From Actinomycetota bacterium (GTDB lineage Bacteria; Actinomycetota; Acidimicrobiia; Acidimicrobiales; Ilumatobacteraceae), in the NCBI GenBank assembly GCA_016871395.1, contig VFYV01000001.1:1-64000 (forward strand): a stretch of 64,000 bases of DNA, written 5' to 3'. A program made the translations under genes and the position numbers. Positions 48,945 to 61,102 of the stretch are shown in pieces. The notes beneath the pieces are model-generated. The model worked only from the letters and a program-made list of their open reading frames with translations, made no database searches and was not told the origin of the DNA. Position 1 is the stretch's first letter, and each line of letters begins with the position of its first letter.

Positions 48945-51221
48945 TCAGAGACAGATGTCGTAAGGACGCACGGGCACCCGAGGTAATTCGCGTCCGACCG
49001 CGTTGCGAATGGCGTTGGCGATGGCCGGTGTGACCGAGATGCACGGGGGCTCACCGACGCCCTTGGCGCCCAGGGGCGACTTCGGTTCGTGCTCCTCGAT
49101 CAAGACCATGTCGACCGTCGGGGCATCGAGGAACGTGGGTAGTAAGTAGTCGGTGAAACTCGGATTTTTCACTTTTCCGTCGGTGACGATGATCTCTTCC
49201 ATGACGGCCAAACCGAGACCCTGAGCGATTCCGCCTTCCACCTGCCCCTGCACCGAGAGGGGATTGAGCACGCGACCGACGTCTTGGGCGGTGGCGATCT
49301 GCACGACCTTGACCAGACCAAGGTCCGGATCGACGTCGACCACCGCACGGTGGGCGACGAAGGCGAAGGCGACGTGACAATTTCCGTGCCCGTCCTCGTC
49401 GAGGTCCTCGGTTGCCGGGTGGCGGTATTCGACCGTGTGGTCGATGTCGTACTTTCCGACGACCTCGGTGACCGGAATGGTGGTTCCGGTCAGGGAATCC
49501 ACGATGTTCGTACCCTCGATCTGTAGTTCGCCACGCACGAGCCCGCGATCGTTGGCCACCCGATCGAGAAGCTCGTCACGCACGGCACGGCACGCCGCGT
49601 CGACGGCACCGCCGCTCATCCATGTTTGGCGACTGGCCGACGTCGACCCTGCCGAGCCCACTTGGGTGTCGATCGGATCCAAAAAGACGTCGTCCACGCC
49701 GAGAACCGTGCGGGCGATCTGTTGCGCCAGCATCACGAAACCTTGCCCCACCTCGGCGGTGGCGAACTTCACGTGGACGGCCCCGTCGGCGATCCGGCAT
49801 CGCGCGGTCGAGTAATCGTCGAATCCCTCCGAGTACATCAGATTCTTGATGCTCACACCCCAGCCGACGCCACGTCGGATGTTGGACGCGCGGGCGGTGA
49901 GACCCGTACCACCGGGGACCGCCAACTCGTGGGCGTCGTCGCGCAATGGCTCCGGGAGGGGAATTCGATCGGTCTCGGTGATGCAGCGAGTCACCGGTGC
50001 CACGCTGTCGACGATCTGGCCGGTGATCAAACGGTCGCCGGTCTCCATGGCGTTGCGCAGTCGTATCTCGACCGGTGACATACCGGTCGCGGCGGCCAAC
50101 TTGTCCATTTGACTCTCGTGAGCGAAACAGGCCTGCACGACACCGAATCCGCGCATCGCGCCACACGGGGGATTGTTGGTGCGCAAGGCCCACCCGTCGA
50201 TGGTGGCATTGTCACATTTGTACGGACCCTGAGCGTGAGTGACGGCGTTGATCAACACCGCGGGAGAGGTACTGCAATACGCTCCGCCGTCGAAGACCAT
50301 CCGAGATTCGATCCGCAGTATGCGTCCGGTCGCATCGGCGTGATGTCGCATCCAGATCGTGGCCGGATGGCGGTGTACATGTCCGTAGAAACTCTCCTCA
50401 CGGCTGTACGCGATACGCACGGGACGCCCGGTGCGCAAGGCCAACAGGCAGGTGTGCACCTGAAGACTGATGTCCTCGCGGGCACCGAAGGCGCCACCGA
50501 CTCCGCCCAAAACGAGACGTACCTTGTCCGACGGCATGTCGAGGCAGGCCGCGATCTGCTTGCGGTCCTCGTGGAGCCACTGCGTCGCGACGTACAACTC
50601 GACTCCATCGCCGTCACTGTCGGGCACCGCCAACGCCGCCTCGAGGCCGAGGAACGCCTGATCCTGCATTCCGATCTCGTACGTGCCCTCGACCTGGATC
50701 TCCCCGATGACGCTTTGGTCACCGGTGAGAATCCGCTGATGGCGGAACACGTTTCCCTGCGGATGGATGGGCGGAGCAGTGCCATCGATGCAGCGCTCGG
50801 CATCGATGACCGGATCGAGCACCTCGTAGGTCACCCGTATCGCGGCCAACGCTCGGCGACAGGTCTCGGGATGATCGGCGGCCACGGCCAGTATCGGCTC
50901 TCCGAGATAGCGAACGGTGTCACCCACTCGTGCGAAGACCGGTTGGTCCTGCATGATCAGGCCGTAGTTGGGTTCGCCGGGAATGTCCTCGGCGGTCACG
51001 ATGCATTCGACGCCCGGGATGCTCCAGGCCGCGGTCACGTCGATGCTCACGAGACGTGCGTGCGGGTGCGGACTGCGCAGGGTGGCACCCCACAGCATGT
51101 TCTCGGCCCACATGTCGCTCGAGAAAGCGAAACCTCCCTGCACTTTGGCGACGCCATCGGGACGATTCGCATTCGCGCCCAGGGCGCCGAATCGGGTCTC
51201 GACCCCGGCGGTCAGCGTCAT
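48945..51221 (-). CDS. Xanthine dehydrogenase-family molybdopterin subunit
   Basis: 758 residues, the molybdenum catalytic subunit of a three-subunit hydroxylase. The MoCo-binding segments are visible: ATQWLHEDRKQ, GGVGGAFGAREDIS, the arginine-containing CGAMRGFGVVQ, and the active-site glutamate in GAKGVGEPP near the end. It hydroxylates a heteroaromatic or aldehyde carbon with water. The substrate cannot be assigned. ATG 51221 overlaps the iron-sulfur subunit gene by four bases. Downstream lies a gap with no firm gene. Confidence 0.92.
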   Translation of the reverse strand: MTLTAGVETRFGALGANANRPDGVAKVQGGFAFSSDMWAENMLWGATLRSPHPHARLVSIDVTAAWSIPGVECIVTAEDIPGEPNYGLIMQDQPVFARVGDTVRYLGEPILAVAADHPETCRRALAAIRVTYEVLDPVIDAERCIDGTAPPIHPQGNVFRHQRILTGDQSVIGEIQVEGTYEIGMQDQAFLGLEAALAVPDSDGDGVELYVATQWLHEDRKQIAACLDMPSDKVRLVLGGVGGAFGAREDISLQVHTCLLALRTGRPVRIAYSREESFYGHVHRHPATIWMRHHADATGRILRIESRMVFDGGAYCSTSPAVLINAVTHAQGPYKCDNATIDGWALRTNNPPCGAMRGFGVVQACFAHESQMDKLAAATGMSPVEIRLRNAMETGDRLITGQIVDSVAPVTRCITETDRIPLPEPLRDDAHELAVPGGTGLTARASNIRRGVGWGVSIKNLMYSEGFDDYSTARCRIADGAVHVKFATAEVGQGFVMLAQQIARTVLGVDDVFLDPIDTQVGSAGSTSASRQTWMSGGAVDAACRAVRDELLDRVANDRGLVRGELQIEGTNIVDSLTGTTIPVTEVVGKYDIDHTVEYRHPATEDLDEDGHGNCHVAFAFVAHRAVVDVDPDLGLVKVVQIATAQDVGRVLNPLSVQGQVEGGIAQGLGLAVMEEIIVTDGKVKNPSFTDYLLPTFLDAPTVDMVLIEEHEPKSPLGAKGVGEPPCISVTPAIANAIRNAVGRELPRVPVRPYDICL

Positions 51222-51724
51222 GCGACGCCACCCGGTGCACGGTCGCGAACGACGACCTTGACGGCCTCCAAGATCCGGCCGTAACCCGTGCAACGGCAGA
51301 TGTTGCCGGACAGGGCCTCCTTGATCTCCTCGTCGTCGGGATGCGGGTTCCGATCGAGAAGGTGGTGCACGGCCACGATGAAACCTGGTGTGCAGAACCC
51401 GCACTGGACGCCACCGGCGTCGAGGAATGCTTGCTGAACGTCAGAGAGCCGACCGTCCTCACCGAGGCTCTCGACCGTCAAGATCCGGGATTCGGTTGCT
51501 GAAGCGGCCATCACCAGACACGAACACACCGCACGATCATCCATGATGACCGTGCAACTCCCGCACTCGCCCTGTTCACAGGCCCCCTTGGCGCCGGGCA
51601 GGCCCAGCCGCTCGCGCAGGACGTACAAAAGGCTTTCGCCGACCCACGCATCGTTCACCTCGCGGTCAGAACCGTTGACGTTGAGTCGGTACGACTCGTT
51701 CAAAGAATCGGAGGAGACGGTCAC
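51218..51724 (-). CDS. Xanthine dehydrogenase-family 2Fe-2S subunit
   Basis: 168 residues with two [2Fe-2S] clusters. The plant-ferredoxin type is bound by CEQGECGSC and a later cysteine in AVCSC. The helical-domain type is bound by CGFCTPG and CRCTGYG. It passes electrons from the molybdenum centre to the FAD subunit. GTG 51724 overlaps the FAD subunit gene by four bases; longer readings upstream show no similarity. Confidence 0.94.
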   Translation of the reverse strand: MTVSSDSLNESYRLNVNGSDREVNDAWVGESLLYVLRERLGLPGAKGACEQGECGSCTVIMDDRAVCSCLVMAASATESRILTVESLGEDGRLSDVQQAFLDAGGVQCGFCTPGFIVAVHHLLDRNPHPDDEEIKEALSGNICRCTGYGRILEAVKVVVRDRAPGGVA

Positions 51725-52569
51725 GCGGCCGACCTTTCGAGTAGCCGACGGGCGAGCACGGACACCGCGTGTCGCCGATAGTCCGCAGTCGATCGGTGGT
51801 CGGAGATCGGGCTCGTCTCGCTGGCCGCCCGTCGACCGAATTCCTCGGTGGTTTCGCGGGAGACCCGGAACGAGCCGCGCAGGTCGACCCGAGTGGACAA
51901 CCACGCTTCGGTTTGTGTGGCGCGAATGATCGTCGGAGCAACCGCGCCGAGGGCCAAGGCGACGTGCCCTCGATCGGCATCGTGGACGAGACACGCCGAA
52001 GCCGTGGAGATCACCATGGCGTTGCGGGTGCCGACCTTGGCGTATCCCTGCCATCCGTTGATGACGGGCACGGTGACGGAATGAACGAATTCCCCGGGTC
52101 GCAGCGCGTTTCTCTTGACGCCGGTCATGAAGTCGCTCAGATGGACGTCTCGAGAGTGATCACGGTGTCGGACATGGATGACCCCGTCGAGCGCACCGAG
52201 CACCGGGAGGATGTCGCCGGCGGGGGAGCAGGTGCCCAGGTTCCCCCCGATGGTCCCCGTGGCTCGAATCTGGGGTGAGCCGACCGTTCGGGCGGCTTGG
52301 GCGAGTGCGGGTACCAGTTCGGCGAGTTCGCCCGTCTCCATGTCGGCGTAGGGCACGGCCGCACCGATGGTCACCGTGCCGAGGCGGGTGTGGTGTTCCC
52401 AGTGTCGCAATTCCTCGAGAGCCCCGATGGGAACGACCGTGCCGGGGCGCCGACCGTGCAGGTTGATCTCCACCATCATGTCGGTTCCCCCCGCCAACAC
52501 CGACACCTCGGGGGTATCAGCGAGCAACTCGAGCAGGTGGTCGACGGAGCGCGGTCGCACAACGGGCAC
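51721..52569 (-). CDS. Xanthine dehydrogenase-family FAD subunit
   Basis: 282 residues, FAD-binding domain of the CO-dehydrogenase-flavoprotein type. The FAD pyrophosphate loop is LAGGTDMMVEI near residue 26, and a second FAD contact is ATGTIGGNLGTCSPAGD. It is the first gene of the operon (FAD, then iron-sulfur, then molybdenum subunit). GTG 52569 has TAACCT six bases upstream, so the mRNA is probably leaderless and controlled by the box shared with the operon at 60291. Confidence 0.92.
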   Translation of the reverse strand: MPVVRPRSVDHLLELLADTPEVSVLAGGTDMMVEINLHGRRPGTVVPIGALEELRHWEHHTRLGTVTIGAAVPYADMETGELAELVPALAQAARTVGSPQIRATGTIGGNLGTCSPAGDILPVLGALDGVIHVRHRDHSRDVHLSDFMTGVKRNALRPGEFVHSVTVPVINGWQGYAKVGTRNAMVISTASACLVHDADRGHVALALGAVAPTIIRATQTEAWLSTRVDLRGSFRVSRETTEEFGRRAASETSPISDHRSTADYRRHAVSVLARRLLERSAA

Positions 52570-52575
52570 AGGAGG

Positions 52576-52592
52576 AGGTTACAAATTGTCAA
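52576..52592 (-). promoter_or_regulatory. Leaderless promoter with shared TTGACA box (copy A)
   Basis: Minus strand: TTGACAATTTGTAACCT, six bases, then GTG 52569. The -10 is TAACCT. The TTGACA lies only five bases before the -10, so it cannot be its -35 and is better read as part of a regulator site. Copy B at 60298-60315 has the same layout with identical spacing. Confidence 0.6.
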
Positions 52593-52642
52593 GCGTTATC
52601 GATCCGTCTCCGGGGTGGGAAAGGGACGTAGCGTCGTGAACT

Positions 52643-53380
52643 ATGTCCCGATTCGGTCGCCCCCGTCAGGTCCCGCGCGACTTCTCCTTGGCCCTCCACG
52701 CCTTCACGGCGTCGGGGGTCTTGGTGGGCATGGCGGCGTTGGTGGCGGTCCTCGACGGCTCGGCGCGCCTGGCGATCATCTGGTTGCTGGTGGCCCAGGT
52801 AATCGATGGCATCGACGGTCCGTTGGCTCGACGCTTGCTCCCCGAAGAGGCGTCCACCCGTTTCGACGGATGCGTGCTCGATCTGGTGATCGATTTCGTG
52901 ACCTGCGTGCTGGTGCCGGCCGCCTTCCTGTGGCAGTTCGGCGTGGTGCCCAACGATCGCTACGGGATGTTGGTCGTGGCGATGATGCTGCTCAGCTCGT
53001 CGCTTTGGTTCAGTCGGACCGACCAACTGAGTGACGACGGTTGGTTCCGTGGCTTCCCGTCGGCGTGGAACATGGTGATCCCCACTCTGTGGCTCCTCGG
53101 TGGGTCGCAATGGTCCAGCAGTGTGGTGATCGTGGTGTTGTCGCTGCTCACCCTCACCAACATCGAGTTCGCGCACCCGGTCCGCGCGGCGACCGGGCGC
53201 CTATGGAACCTGGCGTCGATGACGGTTTGGATCTGGTCGGTGGTGGCCGGAGTCGCCACGAGCCCCGACCTGCCCGTCGGTGTCCGATGGGCGGTCCTCG
53301 TCGGACCGATGATGGTGGCGATCTCGGCGGTGTGGCACGCGGTCACCTCGGCGACCGATGAGGCCTACGCCGAGCATTGA
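52643..53380 (+). CDS. pcs: Phosphatidylcholine synthase (CDP-alcohol phosphatidyltransferase family)
   Basis: 245 residues with about seven to eight membrane segments. The CDP-alcohol motif runs DGIDGPLAR, then G and the aspartates in LDLVIDF. The segment HAFTASGV near the N-terminus and GFPSAWNMVIPTLW follow rhizobial Pcs, which joins choline to CDP-diacylglycerol in one step. Function is inferred from these similarities. TAGCGT lies eight bases before ATG 52643. It diverges from the molybdenum hydroxylase operon over a 73-base spacer. Confidence 0.8.
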   Translation: MSRFGRPRQVPRDFSLALHAFTASGVLVGMAALVAVLDGSARLAIIWLLVAQVIDGIDGPLARRLLPEEASTRFDGCVLDLVIDFVTCVLVPAAFLWQFGVVPNDRYGMLVVAMMLLSSSLWFSRTDQLSDDGWFRGFPSAWNMVIPTLWLLGGSQWSSSVVIVVLSLLTLTNIEFAHPVRAATGRLWNLASMTVWIWSVVAGVATSPDLPVGVRWAVLVGPMMVAISAVWHAVTSATDEAYAEH

Positions 53381-53410
53381 CCGTGCCCGTCGGGCCCCGA
53401 CTCGGGTAGG
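53381..53410. terminator. Weak convergent hairpin
   Basis: CCCGTCGG and CCGACTCGGG form an imperfect stem with a short bulge between the converging pcs and LLM genes. No T-run is present, so any terminator activity is uncertain. Confidence 0.25.
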
Positions 53411-54418
53411 TCAGGCGTTCGCATCCCAGCCGGCGAAGGCGTCGATCATCGACGTGACATCTCCGAGCGGGTAGAGGATCGGGCACGTGCAACCGTGGTC
53501 GATGTAATGCTTCACCTTGGCACGGGCCTCGGCGGGCGTGCCACTGGCCGTGAGCATGTTGACGATCTCGTCGGGCACCAGTTTGCTCGCCGCCTCCACC
53601 TGCTCGTGAGTGGCCGGCCACGTGAGAACGTTGCCGACGTCATCGAGCAACGACTGGGGAACGCCGGACGCTTTCATGATGTGAGGTTGCTGCCCCAGAT
53701 ACTGCGTCACCATGAGCCGGGCCATGTCGAGAGCGGTCTGGTGGTCCTCGTGAACGCTGCAGACCACCAACTGAGGACGATCGATGTCGTCCAATGAGCG
53801 ACCCGCTTTGCGCGCACCTTTTTCGAGTGCCTCCAAGGCTTGGTCGTTGTATCCCGGTGACACCAAGTAGTTGAGGACCGCTCCATCGGCGATCTCACCG
53901 GTCAACTCCATCATCTGCATCCCGGTCGCGCCGATGTAGATCGGCACATCCTTCGGAGCCCGCTCCTGGTACACGTAATCCAACTCGACTCCGTCGAGGT
54001 GCACGTATTCGCCGTCGAAAGTAACGGTCTCGTTGTTGAGAAGACCACGTACGACGGTCACGATCTCGCGCATCACCCGGAGCGGTCGACTGCGGTCGAT
54101 ACCGACCTTTCGAGCCAACGGATCCCACCAGGCACCGATCCCCAAGATGACGCGACCCGGGGCCAGATCGTCGAGGGTCGAGAAGGTGGCGGCCAACCGA
54201 GCGGGATTACGACTCCAGCAGTCGACGACTCCACTACCGATCTTGATGTGGTCGGTGACGCTGGCGAAAGCGGCCATGGGTACGGTCGCCTCGCGGACCA
54301 AACGACTCTCGGCCTGCCATACGGCGGCGAAACCCTTGCTCTCGGCGTACCGAGCAAACTCCATCCCTTCGCGTATTCGGTGAGCATCCTGTAGGTAGAT
54401 GGCAACGGGTTGGTTCAT
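53411..54418 (-). CDS. LLM-class oxidoreductase (Mer-like, F420)
   Basis: 335 residues of luciferase-like barrel related to methylenetetrahydromethanopterin reductase: [43 protein letters not shown] and [16 protein letters not shown]. The cofactor is probably F420. It is the last gene of the leftward carbamoylase/molybdenum-hydroxylase operon, 17 bases after the deaminase gene, and could reduce or oxidise an intermediate there. The true substrate is unknown. Confidence 0.84.
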
Positions 54419-54435
54419 GGTCGTGCTGTTCCTCT

Positions 54436-55458
54436 CTAAAGCTTGGCGAACAATCGCCGGGCAGCCTCGGCGGCCTTGGCGCGGACCTCGTCGATGTCGA
54501 CTCTCGTGGGCCGTCCGTCGACGAGCAATCGTTCACCATCGGCAGAGGTCACGTTGATCGCGCGGATACCGGGAGTGAAGGCGACGTGCCACGGGCTGTC
54601 CACGTGGTCGTAGTTCCACTCGACGACATCGCCACGGCACTCGGGGAAGAAGGAGAAGCCGTTTTCCAACCAGGACCAGACAGTCTCGGGACTTTGCGAG
54701 ACGTCATGGGCCCGCAGAGCCACGTAGGCGAGGCGCATCTCCTCCAACATGTCGGCACCGATTCCGTCGGTGCCGAGCACGATGTCGTTGGCCCGTTCGC
54801 CCGGCACGGCGTAGCCGACCCCGTTGTTCATGTTCGACCGCGGGTTGTGGGCGATCGTCCCTCTCAGCGGTCGATCGACGTCGACGCAGTGAACCAGTAA
54901 CCAATCGTCCGTGGCGAGCCCTTCGAGACGTCGAGCCGCGTCACGATCGTCGGGACCCTCGCCGACGTGGATGTGCACTCCCGTGCCGAGCTCGTCAGCC
55001 AGATCGCTCGCCGAGCGAAGAAGTTCGTCCGAGCAGGTGAACGCGGCGTGGACGCCCACCATCCCTCGACCTCCGGCGCGCAGGAAGCGCTCATTCTCTC
55101 GCAGTCCGCGCTGGCCGGCTTCACGGCCGTGGCGGTCGGTGACCCCGTAACAACAATTGACCCGCACTCCGACGCTGGTACACGCGGCCGAGATGATGTC
55201 GAGTGATCCGTCGATGAGGGATGGACTCTCGTGGTGGTCGATGATGCCGGTGGTCCCCGAGGCCAGAGCCTCCACGGCTCCGAGCAGGGCGGACCAATGC
55301 AGGGTGTCGGCATCGAGAGCCACGTCGAGGCGCCACCAGATTTGTTCGAGGATGTCGAGGAAGGTTCGTGGCTGTCTCGCCGGAGCGGGCATCCCGCGGG
55401 CCAAGGTCGAGTAGAGGTGGTGATGCGCACACACCAGACCCGGGGTCGTGGTGGTCAC
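54436..55458 (-). CDS. SsnA-like aminohydrolase, short N-terminus
   Basis: 340 residues similar to Escherichia coli SsnA, a metal-dependent aminohydrolase encoded beside the xdhD molybdenum hydroxylase there. Shared segments include [15 protein letters not shown] (metal HxH), [33 protein letters not shown] and [15 protein letters not shown]. coli SsnA has about 50 more N-terminal residues forming part of a beta sandwich; here the protein begins just before the HxH. The GTG start overlaps the upstream gene by four bases (GTGA). It probably deaminates or dehalogenates a ring substrate. Confidence 0.8.
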
Positions 55459-58046
55459 TCGTCATCTCCGTCCGGGCGCCGCATCGGAAGCCGATGTCGC
55501 CAGAAACCGTCGAACTGGCGCAGAGCCTCGGCGACTGCTCCGGCGGTGGGCACGAGTCCGATCTCTCCGACGCCCTTGATTCCGTACGGTGAATTCGGTT
55601 CGGGGGACTCGACGAGGATGACCTTGATCGGAGGCACGTCCTTGGCTCGCAGAATGCCGAGCGAGCGCAGCGTCGTGGCGGTGGGAAAGCCGGTCTCGGG
55701 ATCGGAGGGGAAGTCCTCGGTCAGGGCGTAGCCCAGCCCCATGTGCACACTGCCCTCGATCTGCCCCTCGCACAGGGACGGATTGACGGCGCGCCCGACG
55801 TCATGTGCCGCCACCACCTCCACGATGGCTCCACTCTCGCGGTCGATCGACACCAATTGCGCCGCGTAGCCGAAGGTGGAGTGAATGGTCGGGTTCTCGA
55901 CCTCGCCCAGCTTCTGGGTCCAGTCGATTCGATACTCGCCGTGGTAATCGATGCCGACACGACAACCGTCGGCGCGGGCCGCCTCGCACGCGGCTTTCAC
56001 CGCGCCGGCCCCCATCAATGTTCCACGTGAGCCGGTCGTTTGCCCGAACCCGAGTTCTCGGGTGGTGTCGACGATCACCCGAACGTCCTCGGGGTCGATT
56101 CCGAGTTCCTCGACGGCGACCTGCAGCGCGACCGTGTCGATGCCTTGGCCCATCTCGGTCCAACCATGTCGCACTTCGATGATGCCGTCGGCGCGGAAAT
56201 GGATCACCGCGCCGCTGACCTCCTTGAAGCCATTGCCGAGTCCGCTGTTCTTCAGACCCAGTCCCAACCCGACGGCGAGTCCCGCCTCTCGCGCCGCGTC
56301 GTAGTGCGGTTTGATCTCGTCGAGGCATCTCTCCGCTCCGAGACATCCGTCGTTCATGATCTGACCCGGCCCCCAAACCTGCCCGGGTCGGATGACGTTC
56401 CGCTTGCGGATGGTCCAACCGTCGATACCCACCCGATCGGCAAGGCGGTCGAGCACACCCTCCATCGCGAATTGCGCCTGATTCGCCCCGAAGCCGCGAA
56501 ACGCTCCACACACCGGATTGTTCGTGCGCGCCGCAATGGCCTCGACATCGATGTTGGCCACTCGGTACGGGCCACTGGCATGCCCGGCCATTCGCTCCAG
56601 AACCTTCATGCCGACACTGGCGTAGGCGCCACTGTCACCTACCGCGCGCACCCGAAGGGCGGTGAGGTGCCCCTCGGCGTCACACCCGGCGGTGTACTCC
56701 ATACGGATGGGGTGTCGCTTGGCGTGCACGAGGAAGGATTCCTCGCGCGACAACGTGCACTTCACCGGTCGATCGAGCAACCAGGCCGCCAAAGCGGTGT
56801 GGGCTTGGTTGCTCATGTCCTCCTTACCACCGAACGCGCCACCGTTGGTGACCAACTCGACCGTGACCCGCGAGTTGTCGATGCCGAGGACGCGCGCGAT
56901 GTCGTTGCGGTCGTCCCACACACCTTGACCGCCCGAATACACGTGCAGTGAACGCGCGTCGCCGGATCCATCGGGCACGGCGACGGTGCTCTCGGGTTCG
57001 AGGAAGGCGTGTTCGATCCGCTGGGTTTCGAAAGTTTCGCCAACCACGTGGGCGCTGGCGGCCAGGGCGGCATCGACGTCGCCACGGGCGTAGCGACTGA
57101 CGCTGAGCACGTTGTCCTCGGTGCCCCACACGGCGATTTCGGTGGACTCGATGGCGGCTCTGGCGTCGGTGATCGGGCGCTGTGGGAGGTAGTCGACCAG
57201 AACGAGTTCGGCGGCGGCCCGAGCCTCCCGTCGACTGTCGGCCACCACGACCGCGAGCACGTCGCCGGCATAACTCGTACGTCCCCCCACCGGGATCATG
57301 ACCGGCCAATCCTTGTGGATGAGTCCGACCTTCAACTCGGCCGGAACATCGGCAGCGGTGAGGACCGCCACCACGCCGGGGGACGACCGAGCCGCGGCGG
57401 TGTCGATGGCGACGATGTCGGCGCGGGTGTGAGCCGTGAGATGGAGGGCGGCGTGGAGCATCCCGGGGATACGAATGTCGTCGATGTACCCGCGATCGCC
57501 GAGCGCCAGATCCCGGGCCTCGTATTTCATCCCCGACGAACCGATACCCGTCGGTTGCTCGGCCACCATCGGTCGATTCAGCGCGACGGATTCGATGGCG
57601 TCGAGAACCTTGACGTATCCGGTGCAGCGGCAGAGATTGGCGCCGAGATGCCTGGCCATGTCGCTCTTGGTGAGTCGATCACCCTTCTTGTCGACCTGGC
57701 CCTTGGCCCGCATGATGATGCCCGGGATGCAGAATCCACATTGCAGTCCGCCACACGCGGCGAAGGCCTCGGCGTAACGATCGCGCTCGGCATCGTCGAC
57801 CCCCTCGAGTGTGACGATCGACTTACCCGCGACCTTCTCCAGCGACTGTTGACAGCTGACGACCGGTTTCCCGTCGATCATGACGGTGCAACAACCGCAC
57901 TGTCCCGACGGAGAGCAGCCGTCCTTCGGCGAGGTGATGTCGAGTTCTTCACGCAGGGCGGCCAGGAGGTGCGGGTGATCGCCTCTCACCTCGACATCGC
58001 GACCGTTGACTCGCAGTGACACGCGTCGAATCGACTCGATGGTCAT
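55455..58046 (-). CDS. Fused 2Fe-2S/molybdopterin hydroxylase (xanthine dehydrogenase family)
   Basis: 863 residues. Residues 1 to about 160 carry two [2Fe-2S] clusters (CSPSGQCGCC and CGFCIPG with CRCTGY), joined to a molybdenum catalytic domain (GGQGVWDDRND, GGAFGGKEDMS, CGAFRGFGANQ, active-site glutamate in KGVGEIG). No FAD domain is present, as in aldehyde oxidoreductases and E. coli XdhD, so electrons must leave through another protein. It is the third gene of the operon starting at 60291 and a second enzyme of the same family as the operon at 52569. Confidence 0.9.
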   Translation of the reverse strand: MTIESIRRVSLRVNGRDVEVRGDHPHLLAALREELDITSPKDGCSPSGQCGCCTVMIDGKPVVSCQQSLEKVAGKSIVTLEGVDDAERDRYAEAFAACGGLQCGFCIPGIIMRAKGQVDKKGDRLTKSDMARHLGANLCRCTGYVKVLDAIESVALNRPMVAEQPTGIGSSGMKYEARDLALGDRGYIDDIRIPGMLHAALHLTAHTRADIVAIDTAAARSSPGVVAVLTAADVPAELKVGLIHKDWPVMIPVGGRTSYAGDVLAVVVADSRREARAAAELVLVDYLPQRPITDARAAIESTEIAVWGTEDNVLSVSRYARGDVDAALAASAHVVGETFETQRIEHAFLEPESTVAVPDGSGDARSLHVYSGGQGVWDDRNDIARVLGIDNSRVTVELVTNGGAFGGKEDMSNQAHTALAAWLLDRPVKCTLSREESFLVHAKRHPIRMEYTAGCDAEGHLTALRVRAVGDSGAYASVGMKVLERMAGHASGPYRVANIDVEAIAARTNNPVCGAFRGFGANQAQFAMEGVLDRLADRVGIDGWTIRKRNVIRPGQVWGPGQIMNDGCLGAERCLDEIKPHYDAAREAGLAVGLGLGLKNSGLGNGFKEVSGAVIHFRADGIIEVRHGWTEMGQGIDTVALQVAVEELGIDPEDVRVIVDTTRELGFGQTTGSRGTLMGAGAVKAACEAARADGCRVGIDYHGEYRIDWTQKLGEVENPTIHSTFGYAAQLVSIDRESGAIVEVVAAHDVGRAVNPSLCEGQIEGSVHMGLGYALTEDFPSDPETGFPTATTLRSLGILRAKDVPPIKVILVESPEPNSPYGIKGVGEIGLVPTAGAVAEALRQFDGFWRHRLPMRRPDGDDE

Positions 58047-59011
58047 GAATCACTCTCCGCCGTGATGATCGCGCCCCGCTGTGACGTGATGCGGGTGTAG
58101 ACCTCGGGTCGCCGGTACTTCTCGAAATCGAACAAAGTGTCCTTGTAGCGCTTGCACCAGTCGAGGTCGCACGATGCCACGATCAACTCGTCCCCGTTGG
58201 TCAGGGCCTGGGCCACGATCTGACCGCTTGGGGCGATGATGCAGGATTCAGCGAGGGAGTCGACACCCTCCTCGACTCCGCCCTTGGCCACGCCCACCAC
58301 CCACGTTCCGTTCTGGTACGCGCCGGCTTGCATGACGAGGGCGTTGTGGAACCCTTGCAGAGTGTCCTGGCTGGGATCGGGAGCGTAGTGGATCGGCGTG
58401 TTGTAACCGCACAGGATCATCTCCACGCCCTGAAGGCCCATCTCGCGGTAGGACTCGGGCCAGCGACGGTCGTTGCAGGTCATCATTCCAACGAGTCCGC
58501 CGAAGGCCCGCCACACTCCGAAGCCTTCGGGACCGGGTTCGAAGTAGTAACGCTCGGCGTGTTGGAAAGGCCGGTTCGGTTCGTGTCCGGCATGTCCCGG
58601 AATGTGTACCTTGCGGTACTTGGCGACGATCGCGCCTTTGCGATCCACCAGGATCTGAGTGTTGTAACGGTGGCGGACTCCGTCCGCCTCGATCGGGGTC
58701 AGCTCGGCGTAGCCCAGAGAAAAACCGATGCCGAGGCGCTTGGCCTCGTCGAAGAGGGGTTGGGTGTGTGGTCCGGGCATCGATGTCTCGTACCAGTGGT
58801 CGGCTTCGGAGATGTCCTCGAGAAACCAGCGGGGGAAGAAGGTGGTGAGCGCCAATTCGGGAAAAACCACGAGGTCGCAGCCCCGCTTCGACGCCTCTCC
58901 CAGCAGACAGACCAGACGAGAAACCACCGAGGCACGATCGTCGGTCCGTTGCACCGGCCCCAGTTGTGCGGCTCCCACGACGATCGTGCGCGCGGTCGGA
59001 TTGGTGGTCAT
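58043..59011 (-). CDS. Nitrilase-superfamily N-carbamoyl-D-amino-acid hydrolase-like
   Basis: 322 residues closely following Agrobacterium D-carbamoylase. Catalytic glutamate in FPELALTTFFPRW, lysine in YRKVHIPGH, and cysteine in MTCNDRRWPE, with GYNTPIHY and MQAGAYQNGTW near the active-site entrance. Family enzymes hydrolyse N-carbamoyl-D-amino acids or related ureido compounds to ammonia, CO2 and an amine. ATG 59011 is used, since the residues before it are not conserved. It overlaps both neighbours by four bases. Confidence 0.87.
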   Translation of the reverse strand: MTTNPTARTIVVGAAQLGPVQRTDDRASVVSRLVCLLGEASKRGCDLVVFPELALTTFFPRWFLEDISEADHWYETSMPGPHTQPLFDEAKRLGIGFSLGYAELTPIEADGVRHRYNTQILVDRKGAIVAKYRKVHIPGHAGHEPNRPFQHAERYYFEPGPEGFGVWRAFGGLVGMMTCNDRRWPESYREMGLQGVEMILCGYNTPIHYAPDPSQDTLQGFHNALVMQAGAYQNGTWVVGVAKGGVEEGVDSLAESCIIAPSGQIVAQALTNGDELIVASCDLDWCKRYKDTLFDFEKYRRPEVYTRITSQRGAIITAESDS

Positions 59012-60291
59012 GGCCGTACCCCGCTCGGTTCTCGTTGGGCCAACTCCCACATGGAGTCGAGAAGAACGTTGGCTCCGGCCACGAGATCGACATCATCGGT
59101 GTGCTCGGCGGCGTTGTGGCTGATGCCGAGATGCGAGGGGACGAAGATCATCGCGCTCGGGCACACGCGAGCCAGCATCTGGGCGTCGTGTCCGGCTCCC
59201 GACGGCATCCGTTTCACGCTGTGTCCGTGATCGCCGGCGATCGTCGCCACCAGATCCACGACCTCGGGGTCGAAGACCACCGGTTCGAAGCGCGCCAGGC
59301 GTCGACTCTGGATCGTCACGGCCTCGCGCAGCGCAATGTCGTCGAGGAACTCCGAGATCCTCCGCTCGGCGCCGAGGAGGAGTTCCTCGTCGGTGTTTCG
59401 GACGTCGAGGGTGATTTTGGCGACCGCGGGCACGACGTTGACCAAGTTCGGGGAGAGGTCGATCTTGCCGACCGTGCACACCTGGTTGCCCCCCATCTCC
59501 GCCGCCAGTTCGCGCAAGAAGACCACGATCGACCCGGCCACGAAGGCCGGATCACGGCGCAGGTGCATCGGAGTCGTGCCGGCATGATTGCTCTGCCCGG
59601 TGATGGTGACCTCTTGCCAGGAAATACCCTGCACCCCATCGACCGCGCCGATGGTGACGCCCTCGGCCTCCAGCAACGGTCCCTGCTCGATGTGTAACTC
59701 GATGAACGCGTGTGGCACCGGACCGGGCACCGGCGCCGAACCGTTGTACCCGATCCGAGACAACTCGTCGCCGAGACGAGCCCCATCGATGGCCAGCGTG
59801 TCGAGGGCGGCTTCGATGCTCACACCGCCGACGTAGGCCAACGAACCCAGCATGTCGGGTTGGAAGCGAGCCCCCTCCTCGTTCGTGAAGACCGCGACGC
59901 TGAGCGGGCGCGAGGGAGTCAAACCGGCGGTCATCAACGTTTCGATGACCTCGAGTCCGGCGAGCACGCCGTAGTTACCGTCGTATCGACCGCCTGTTCT
60001 CACGGTGTCGATGTGGCTTCCGGTCATGACCGGCGTGCCGGGAGCGCATTCCCAGGTTCCAAAGATGTTCCCGATGGCGTCGACCTGGACCCGCAGGCCC
60101 AAATCGACCATCCACGACCGCACCACGTCGCGTCCGGCCCGGTCCTCGTCGGTGAGGGCCAGACGACACGAGCCACCCCCGGGGATCGGTGAGACCTCGC
60201 CCAGGTCATCGAGTCGGGCTCGAAGGCGAGCCGGATCGATACGTACCCCTCGGGCCGTCGGCCTCATGTTCTCGTTGACCTGCGGTGACAC
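59008..60291 (-). CDS. M20 amidohydrolase: N-carbamoyl-L-amino-acid hydrolase / allantoate amidohydrolase family
   Basis: 427 residues. The two-metal site is visible in TGSHIDTVRTGGRYDGNYG, the catalytic glutamate pair in FTNEEGARF, and the last ligand in SHNAAEHTDD. The lid domain with HAGTTPMHLRRD is also typical. Relatives hydrolyse N-carbamoyl-L-amino acids, allantoate or beta-ureidopropionate. As the first gene of a five-gene operon it has GTG 60291 with TAAACT six bases upstream. Together with the D-carbamoylase-like neighbour it suggests a ureido intermediate. Confidence 0.88.
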   Translation of the reverse strand: MSPQVNENMRPTARGVRIDPARLRARLDDLGEVSPIPGGGSCRLALTDEDRAGRDVVRSWMVDLGLRVQVDAIGNIFGTWECAPGTPVMTGSHIDTVRTGGRYDGNYGVLAGLEVIETLMTAGLTPSRPLSVAVFTNEEGARFQPDMLGSLAYVGGVSIEAALDTLAIDGARLGDELSRIGYNGSAPVPGPVPHAFIELHIEQGPLLEAEGVTIGAVDGVQGISWQEVTITGQSNHAGTTPMHLRRDPAFVAGSIVVFLRELAAEMGGNQVCTVGKIDLSPNLVNVVPAVAKITLDVRNTDEELLLGAERRISEFLDDIALREAVTIQSRRLARFEPVVFDPEVVDLVATIAGDHGHSVKRMPSGAGHDAQMLARVCPSAMIFVPSHLGISHNAAEHTDDVDLVAGANVLLDSMWELAQREPSGVRP

Positions 60292-60297
60292 GGGGGA

Positions 60298-60315
60298 AGT
60301 TTACATTTTGTCAAA
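60298..60315 (-). promoter_or_regulatory. Leaderless promoter with shared TTGACA box (copy B)
   Basis: Minus strand: TTTGACAAAATGTAAACT, six bases, then GTG 60291. The -10 is TAAACT. From TTGACA to GTG is 17 bases, exactly as in copy A at 52576-52592. The core TTTGACA-AAA-TGTAAAC is an imperfect inverted repeat. Confidence 0.6.
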
Positions 60316-60353
60316 GCCAGATGGGACATGGCCGACTCCCTTATCCTCGCGCC

Positions 60354-60380
60354 ATGGGCGGTCGGCGAGGTCTTCGGTGA
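60354..60380 (+). CDS. Possible eight-codon leader ORF coupled to the transporter
   Basis: ATG 60354 is preceded at exactly six bases by TATCCT (60342-60347), the leaderless pattern. It opens a reading of eight codons (MGGRRGLR) whose TGA at 60378-60380 overlaps the transporter GTG 60377 in a GTGA. It could feed ribosomes to the transporter gene by reinitiation. This rests only on spacing. Confidence 0.35.
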   Translation: MGGRRGLR

Positions 60381-61102
60381 CCGTCGCTGAGACCACGGCG
60401 CTCATTTTGTCGGTGTTCGTCGCCTCCACCACCCAAGTCACCGTCGGATTCGGGTTCGCCTTACTCGGCGTGCCCCTCATGGCCTTGACCTTGCCCACGC
60501 GGGAGGCCGTGGTGGTATCCACGGTCCTCGGTCTGGTCACCAGCTCGTTCCAAGCGTGGCATGGCCGCCGCGATGTCGAGCGAGCATTGGTCGTACGGAT
60601 GGTCGGTTCGGCCGCGGTCGGGCTACCTCTCGGTTGGTTCTTGTTCACCCGTGTCGACGAGGACGTTTTACGGATCCTGTTGGGGGTCAGCGTGATGGTG
60701 GCGGTCCTGTTGTTGGCCTCCAAGCGCGTGGCGACCGGCTCGCGACGTCTCGACGTCGTGTGCGGAGTTCTGAGTGGGGCTCTGGCCTCGTCGCTGTCCA
60801 CCAACGGGCCGCCACTGGTGTTCGCGTTGCAGGCCCGCGGTCTGCCCATGAGCGTGTTTCGTCCCACGATCAACACGGTCTTCACGGTGTCGGGAATCGT
60901 CGCCTTGTCGGGCTTCGTCATCAGCGACGACGTGACCGGTGACGCGTTGATCCACTCGTTGACGGCGATTCCGGTGCTCGTGATCGGAGCGCGTAGTGGT
61001 TTCATCCTGCGGGGGCGGGTCTCTGAGACCGGCGCCCGACAGTTGGCGCTGTTCTTGTTGGCTCTCGCCGGCTTGGCGGCGATCCTGAGCGCCGTGTGGT
61101 GA
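60377..61102 (+). CDS. TauE/SafE-family anion permease
   Basis: 241 residues with about seven to eight membrane segments and the family's repeated GxGx and PxxA patterns (QVTVGFGFALLGVPLMAL and GALASSLSTNGPPLVFAL). Members export or import sulfonates, sulfite and other small anions; here it diverges from the carbamoylase operon across an 85-base spacer and may carry a substrate or product of that pathway. GTG 60377 is the first start before the first membrane segment. Confidence 0.82.
   Translation: MTVAETTALILSVFVASTTQVTVGFGFALLGVPLMALTLPTREAVVVSTVLGLVTSSFQAWHGRRDVERALVVRMVGSAAVGLPLGWFLFTRVDEDVLRILLGVSVMVAVLLLASKRVATGSRRLDVVCGVLSGALASSLSTNGPPLVFALQARGLPMSVFRPTINTVFTVSGIVALSGFVISDDVTGDALIHSLTAIPVLVIGARSGFILRGRVSETGARQLALFLLALAGLAAILSAVW

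Follow-up and report, generated by a model that had tools for sequence, protein, structure and literature searches.

The reductive urate pathway has been reconstituted by Li et al. (2025; PMC12507026). In the parts of that paper available to us, XdhD-YgfM reduces urate to 2,8-dioxopurine (yanthine), YgfK reduces yanthine, SsnA opens the ring to give ureidomethylhydantoin, HyuA opens the hydantoin to 2,3-diureidopropionate, and YgeX turns 2,3-diaminopropionate into pyruvate. The E. coli genes given there are xdhD-ygfM, ygfK, ssnA, hyuA, ygeW, ygeY, and ygeX. The same parts describe, for Chloroflexota only, an SsnA adjoining a PF00296 enzyme, which was proposed as an F420-dependent yanthine reductase and for which they report no assay. 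According to a 2025 commentary, the reductive route is confined to obligate or facultative anaerobes; whether it arose long ago or as a recent adaptation to the gut is posed there as a question (PMC12990295). Here we analyse a gene cluster in a 64,000-nt stretch of DNA (positions 1 to 64,000 of contig VFYV01000001.1, assembly GCA_016871395.1; hereafter the window) from a member of the Ilumatobacteraceae (Acidimicrobiia). This cluster probably represents a variant of the reductive urate pathway for purine use, a reading to which we assign a probability of about 0.7. Among the matches listed from open-licence PMC texts, none dealt with a reductive urate cluster of Acidimicrobiia.

The cluster comprises eight catabolic genes on the minus strand (48945–60291), separated into two runs by one plus-strand gene. 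In the order of transcription, they encode an M20 enzyme, a nitrilase, a fused Fe-S/Mo hydroxylase (XDHf), an SsnA-like protein, and an LLM enzyme, followed beyond the plus-strand gene by PucC, PucE, and PucD. All of the genes named in the original prediction were found there. The window belongs to a draft genome of 1.95 Mb (G000, 87% complete; hereafter the own genome), which was surveyed together with 60 relatives (61 genomes, numbered G; loci are numbered L). Within each run, adjacent genes of the window overlap or stand no more than 20 nt apart. Among the window and 106 loci compared with it, the LLM and PucC genes were both present in 37, and their junction was a 4-nt overlap in 16, an opposite-strand arrangement in 8, a gap of 840–1242 nt in 12, and of another kind in 1. 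After three repeats of the same contig were dropped, the 4-nt overlap was found in 15 of 34 distinct loci. The plus-strand gene, a CDP-alcohol phosphatidyltransferase-like gene, also fills the LLM–PucC gap in L041, L042, L044, and L046, and the 4-nt overlap of LLM and PucC elsewhere leaves no space for it. The two runs are a single gapless eight-gene operon in many relatives and are split by an inserted gene in the clade of the window. The two operons originally described are accordingly seen in the window as two runs and do not hold for the 15 relative loci with one operon. Co-expression of the two runs is likely in view of this uninterrupted arrangement. The gene order is kept across relatives and, together with the occurrence of XDHf in 42 of the 61 genomes, indicates that the cluster is not a chance assembly; the earlier view of one functional unit is supported.

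In the proposed route, PucCDE would oxidise xanthine to urate, and XDHf would remove the C6 oxygen of urate to give yanthine. The LLM enzyme with F420H2 would reduce yanthine and break its aromaticity, which is the job of YgfK/UacX. SsnA would open the six-membered ring of the dihydro form to give ureidomethylhydantoin, and a dihydropyrimidinase encoded elsewhere in the genome would open the hydantoin to 2,3-diureidopropionate. The nitrilase, as a D-carbamoylase, would remove the 2-ureido group and the M20 enzyme the 3-ureido group, yielding 2,3-diaminopropionate, CO2, and ammonia. We infer the substrates, the reaction directions, F420 as the donor, and the carbamoylase assignment. Since YgfK and YgeX were not found genome-wide and YgeW and YgeY were not found in the cluster, the system is classed as a variant of the pathway rather than with the E. 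coli form itself. The original prediction had proposed hydroxylation followed by deamination. This direction is probably wrong, because the nearest system, in the available parts of its description, removes oxygen, reduces the ring, and lets SsnA open it (PMC12507026). The SsnA–xdhD neighbourhood to which it pointed is meaningful.

The distributions of the LLM enzyme and YgfK are complementary. SsnA was found in 41 of the 61 genomes, an LLM orthologue (72–100% identity) in 36, and a YgfK-like protein in 5. The 41 SsnA genomes are exactly these 36 plus these 5, no genome has both, and the other 20 have neither. By genus, the split is 13 and 5 of 18; the genome counts are not phylogenetically independent. 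An LLM match of 48% in G051 was excluded as a paralogue, and two LLM pieces of G018 were counted as one genome. No YgfK-like protein was matched in the own genome, where UacX/PydA were not searched separately. One YgfK-like protein from a relative scored 418.5 bits with TIGR03315 (cut-off 835.3) over the first 419 of 1012 model positions and has 4Fe-4S motifs. A scan of genome contigs with the SsnA alignment confirmed at least 593 relatives, of which the best 80 were taken as named loci; their titles give Actinomycetota taxa, “bacterium”, “marine group bacterium”, or a Candidatus name. Within the DNA compared, 57 of these 80 loci have LLM, 8 have YgfK, none has both, and 15 have neither. The two sets are not independent, since at least 13 of the named loci come from genomes of the 61-genome set (12 share DNA, and the SsnA of L168 is the same as that of G036). 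An SsnA tree of 87 rows (68 with LLM, 11 with YgfK, 7 unknown, and E. coli) requires at least 5 changes between the LLM and YgfK states, a soft count given that 32 of 84 inner branches are weak. In 8 of the 15 loci with neither enzyme, the genes for D-carbamoylase, SsnA, and PucC are consecutive with no room for XDHf or LLM, and all eight of those genomes encode LLM elsewhere, directly beside XDHf. The movement of XDHf and LLM as a pair fits consecutive pathway steps. Among the rest of the 15, L168 lies in a YgfK genome, and L124, L165, L169, L178, L180, and L182 were not traced further. The LLM enzyme, to which the original prediction gave no role, is probably the yanthine reductase of the pathway, doing the job of YgfK.

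Three side observations were made on these loci. A hybrid cluster in L153 (222–11761) combines compact SsnA and YgfK with homologues of ygeW (35%), yqeA (47%), and ygfM (31%), a Mo hydroxylase (29% to XDHf) with a separate Fe-S subunit, and a cysK-like pyridoxal phosphate (PLP) protein; by its gene content, it links the actinobacterial and E. coli cluster forms. A Bmp-type nucleoside ABC transporter of four genes lies in the cluster in L059, L062 (= L172), L064, L184, and L190, mostly accompanying YgfK and in L190 accompanying LLM. The contigs of L117, L118, and L142 were deposited as Bifidobacterium breve or Ferrithrix thermotolerans metagenome-assembled genomes, labels that look wrong, and their SsnA groups with loci titled Ilumatobacteraceae.

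The link to F420 was examined by sequence and structure comparison. Mer, the F420-dependent methylenetetrahydromethanopterin reductase, is the best solved-structure match of the window LLM by sequence, and every one of the top 10 sequence matches is an F420 enzyme. With the AlphaFold model (mean pLDDT 86.7), PDB ranks 1–19 are likewise all F420 enzymes, with Mer the best by fold (22–28% identity in structural alignments). The own genome encodes CofD (312.8, cut-off 257.45) and CofE (253.5, cut-off 180.65) on G000:C11. A PF01933 match of CofD was not accepted by itself as proof of F420, because the control for this family also matches in E. coli; for this reason the own protein was checked with NCBIfam. 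F420 is thus the predicted electron donor. Alternatively, the LLM enzyme could be an FMN/O2 monooxygenase that opens the ring oxidatively, for which RutA provides the model. The LLM superfamily includes FMN monooxygenases, and the host is probably O2-respiring: the window contains P450 and Rieske oxygenase genes, and many titles among the SsnA loci are Ilumatobacteraceae or other Acidimicrobiia, which are known as aerobes. We consider a monooxygenase very improbable nevertheless, given the uniform F420 matches above and the exchange of LLM with YgfK, a reductase.

A second LLM enzyme was observed in a pyrimidine-type cluster (L103, G000:C22, 7836–12887; also L104–L108 and L110), together with beta-ureidopropionase, dihydropyrimidinase, and a methylmalonate-semialdehyde-type dehydrogenase. 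It was present in 7 of 8 loci examined, with no YgfK-like match; PydA itself was not searched. Three of these LLM proteins were tested and reached 577–598 bits with TIGR03842 (cut-off 295). This enzyme may replace dihydropyrimidine dehydrogenase.

The two Mo hydroxylases were compared at their active sites. Residues matching E802, R880, and E1261 of bovine XDH are kept in 13 of 13 PucD sequences extracted. XDHf lacks the FAD domain and scores 9.6 bits under the TIGR03311 cut-off. Its best match in a plasmid collection is a “selenium-dependent xanthine dehydrogenase” of Enterococcus faecalis, whose plasmid also carries ssnA, ygfK, hydA, dpaL, a YgeY-family hydrolase, ygeW, carbamate kinase, a permease, and selenium genes besides xdh. 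Collinsella aerofaciens has ssnA, ygfK, and xdh next to one another, with dpaL, YgeY, and ygeW about 10 kb further on; the stretch shown contains no hydA. XDHf shares 41.9% identity with E. faecalis Xdh (837 aligned columns), 40.2% with the Collinsella, 26.6% with the Cetobacterium, and 24.0% with the E. coli (XdhD) protein, and 34.2% with the PucD of the window. All 27 of 27 XDHf sequences, as well as E. faecalis Xdh, retain the classical xanthine hydroxylase residues (E/R/E), whereas E. coli XdhD carries Q, Q, and E. E606 of XdhD, which is stressed in the parts of the paper available to us (PMC12507026), is absent from E. faecalis Xdh as it is from XDHf. E. coli XdhD was rejected as a template for XDHf on account of the 24% identity and the differing active-site residues, and E. 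faecalis Xdh was used instead. The active-site residues count against XDHf as an equivalent of E. coli XdhD and for an Enterococcus-type enzyme, for which neither the commentary (PMC12990295) nor the available parts of PMC12507026 report an assay. At E 1e-8, E. coli yqeB matched none of the 80 named SsnA loci; SelD/YqeB were not searched genome-wide.

These residues also bear on the possibility that the same enzyme types process another purine- or hydantoin-like ring, such as a 6-unsubstituted or modified purine hydroxylated by XDHf, with LLM and SsnA acting on the product. The E/R/E residues would suit such a hydroxylase, the substrate is unreadable from sequence, and SsnA is just 32% identical to its E. 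coli and E. faecalis counterparts over the matched parts. On the other hand, E. faecalis Xdh has the same residues. PucCDE, the predicted urate maker, shares the operon in the 15 of 34 distinct loci, and in L188, L156, and L185 the cluster also includes a diaminopropionate lyase and a HyuA homologue, which points to the C3 diamine of the urate route. A different ring is in our judgement unlikely.

The nitrilase is a clear homologue of D-carbamoylase: it matches N-carbamoyl-D-amino-acid hydrolase with 411 bits (E 2.7e-122), and its best NCBIfam match, N-carbamoylputrescine amidase, is at 103 bits far below the cut-off. This agrees with the original suggestion of a nitrogen-ring substrate ending in ureido acids that are split by carbamoylases. 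The closest matches of the M20 enzyme are amidases of the hydantoinase/carbamoylase family, L-carbamoylases (PDB 3n5f), and beta-alanine synthase (PDB 1r3n). It scores only 20.7 with the YgeY model (cut-off 321; cluster protein only), and E. coli YgeW had no match among the window-cluster proteins; YgeY and YgeW were not searched genome-wide. 2,3-Diureidopropionate carries two ureido groups, one in the alpha position (D if R-configured) and one in the beta position, as in N-carbamoyl-beta-alanine. We infer that the D-carbamoylase takes the former (2-ureido) and the M20 enzyme the latter (3-ureido).

Several of the best NCBIfam models of the M20 enzyme are named allantoate amidohydrolase, and NF006771 is over its cut-off (413.4 versus 399), as would suit ordinary oxidative purine breakdown in which xanthine dehydrogenase makes urate and M20 acts on allantoate formed through allantoin. 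However, uricase (PF01014) was found in 0 of the 61 genomes (control positive in 2 of 14; non-uricase urate oxidases were not searched), and OHCU decarboxylase (PF09349) also in 0 of 61 (control positive in 4 of 14; HIU hydrolase was not searched). An oxidative route would moreover leave SsnA, LLM/YgfK, and the D-carbamoylase unexplained, and we give it hardly any credence. As to purine supply, the own genome has an 8-oxoguanine deaminase over the cut-off and a guanine deaminase-like gene below it, which are predicted to feed urate and xanthine.

The original prediction saw no hydantoinase. This is true of the cluster but not of the genome: the search it suggested for a hydantoinase or dihydropyrimidinase found a dihydropyrimidinase-type HyuA (G000:C22:13881–15317; TIGR02033 536.7, cut-off 393.25), and in some relatives such an enzyme is linked to the cluster. 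An orthologue (64%) of the own enzyme lies beside XDHf and diaminopropionate lyase in L060, while more distant HyuA homologues (34–47%) occur in L188, L156, and L185 and beside SsnA in L169 and L182. HyuA (at least 53% identity) is present in 36 of 41 SsnA genomes versus 2 of 20 others; matches of 34–39% in G039, G044, G049, and G050 were excluded, so that 38 of 42 genomes were counted, and a 126-residue match at a contig edge in G020 was counted as present. L188 unites PucCED, M20, D-carbamoylase, XDHf, SsnA, LLM, diaminopropionate lyase, and HyuA. Diaminopropionate ammonia-lyase was found in 7 of the best 80 SsnA loci, both query forms counted, and the L062 protein scores 323 with NF006058 (cut-off 276).

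Further proteins were noted near the cluster. In five genera (L049, L050, L051, L052, and L054; PRK07046 638 bits in L050, cut-off 425), M20 has a class III aminotransferase as its neighbour on the opposite strand. One or two unassigned PLP proteins of PF00291 recur by the cluster (L063 6215–8948; L153, L157, L158, L169, L170, L175, L182, L183, and L190); a cysK-like kind of about 510 aa occurs in 9 of the 80 named loci and a threonine-dehydratase-like kind of 370 aa in 3. The PF00291 proteins are candidates for 2,3-diaminopropionate use.

The SsnA of the window is compact. It begins at the metal-binding motif, so that about 50 N-terminal residues of the E. coli protein are absent, and its frame is open upstream for at most one codon more. 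In 19 other extracted SsnA sequences the match begins at the same point; some of these frames extend upstream, and no SsnA-like N-terminus was seen in the up to 70 upstream residues examined. The presumed metal-site histidines and aspartate are invariant and an SNMNN stretch is nearly invariant in the extracted sequences. The AlphaFold model (mean pLDDT 95.5) matches cytosine/isocytosine deaminase-type amidohydrolases.

Several observations weigh against a reductive urate pathway. The co-occurrence of the genes partly reflects shared ancestry. G029 (L055, 90% complete) has adjoining XDHf and D-carbamoylase with no SsnA, LLM, or YgfK match, a case of either decay or a different role for XDHf. 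In XDHf the classical residues of xanthine hydroxylases are retained, and D or N occupies the position of E606 of E. coli XdhD; the enzyme narrowly misses its NCBIfam cut-off, and SsnA and LLM fall far short of theirs. FMN is the cofactor of some LLM enzymes; F420 binding of this one is a prediction from sequence and fold. The own hydantoinase sits in the pyrimidine-type cluster, unlinked to the urate cluster, and HyuA is absent from 5 of the 41 SsnA genomes, three of which are 53–80% complete and the others 96% (G025) and 91% (G026). The own genome (87% complete) yielded no match to diaminopropionate ammonia-lyase (YgeX), which is present in only 4 of 61 genomes, adjoining the cluster in three; the class III aminotransferase is present in 16 of 61 and not in the own genome. 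Lastly, urate reduction in an O2-breathing cell would be unexpected.

The features of the locus are listed in Table 1. A TauE/SafE-type permease gene (60287–61102, plus strand) is divergent from M20 and kept there in several genera. It was not adopted as part of the cluster and is possibly the pathway transporter or a bystander.

Table 1 Features of the cluster in the window. Four gene starts were set by eye at the conserved part.
Feature	Coordinates	Strand	Evidence and predicted role
PucD-like molybdopterin subunit of xanthine dehydrogenase	48945–51221	-	TIGR03196 839.6 bits (cut-off 783.65); predicted xanthine to urate
PucE-like [2Fe-2S] subunit	51218–51724	-	Pfam Fer2/Fer2_2; XdhC/PucE models below cut-off; start by eye
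PucC-like FAD subunit	51721–52569	-	Pfam FAD_binding_5, CO_deh_flav_C; XdhB models below cut-off
CDP-alcohol phosphatidyltransferase-like gene	52643–53380	+	Pfam PF01066 23.1 bits (cut-off 22); outside pathway
LLM-fold, Mer-like enzyme	53411–54418	-	NCBIfam Mer models best, below cut-off; predicted F420H2-dependent 2,8-dioxopurine (yanthine) reductase
Compact SsnA aminohydrolase	54436–55458	-	SsnA models best, below cut-off; predicted opening to ureidomethylhydantoin
XDHf, fused Fe-S/Mo hydroxylase without FAD domain, XdhAC / Se-dependent XDH type	55455–58046	-	TIGR03311 820.9 bits (cut-off 830.45); predicted urate to 2,8-dioxopurine reductase
Nitrilase-superfamily D-carbamoylase	58043–59011	-	PDB 8i99; predicted removal of 2-ureido group of 2,3-diureidopropionate
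M20 carbamoylase	59008–60267 (or to 60291)	-	TIGR01879 387 bits (cut-off 204); predicted removal of 3-ureido group

A broader interpretation, to which we give slightly less than even odds, is that Acidimicrobiia have a complete reductive route of purine breakdown remodelled for life exposed to O2. It would replace the route through uricase and allantoin; the F420H2-dependent LLM enzyme would have replaced the presumably oxygen-sensitive Fe-S reductase YgfK several times, and hydantoinase-style carbamoylases would have replaced YgeW/YgeY. With the TIGR03842 LLM in place of dihydropyrimidine dehydrogenase, F420 would possibly drive both purine and pyrimidine breakdown. A widespread Acidimicrobiia version with cofactor and ureidase swaps bears on the restriction of the route to anaerobes and on the question of ancient origin versus gut adaptation. 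It also provides a testable function for an LLM enzyme that had none assigned, and it predicts a purine reductase that depends on F420 and has defined partners.

Compared with known systems, the cluster shares with the E. coli reductive urate pathway, as described in the available parts of PMC12507026, an XdhAC/XdhD-family Mo enzyme, SsnA, a HyuA-type hydantoinase, and two enzymes of ureido-cleaving type, and YgfK and YgeX homologues appear in sister clusters. It differs in several respects: LLM takes the place of YgfK/UacX, and the D-carbamoylase and the M20 enzyme (TIGR01879) take that of YgeW/UacY and YgeY; SsnA is compact, PucCDE belongs to the operon, YgeX was not found in the genome, the hydantoinase is unlinked, and the hosts are not known as anaerobes. 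Mer has the same fold as the LLM enzyme, which here has another genomic context and a predicted purine substrate. Hydantoinase/D-carbamoylase systems are related through the nitrilase and the dihydropyrimidinase in the genome, but here the context is a purine cluster and the predicted substrate diureidopropionate. The Chloroflexota proposal, in the parts available to us, likewise combines SsnA with LLM (PMC12507026), a likeness drawn from its description and not from sequence. Beyond that proposal, the present analysis adds the version in Acidimicrobiia, the mutual exclusion of LLM and YgfK, the paired relocation of XDHf and LLM, the pair of carbamoylases, the compact form of SsnA, and arguments for life under air.

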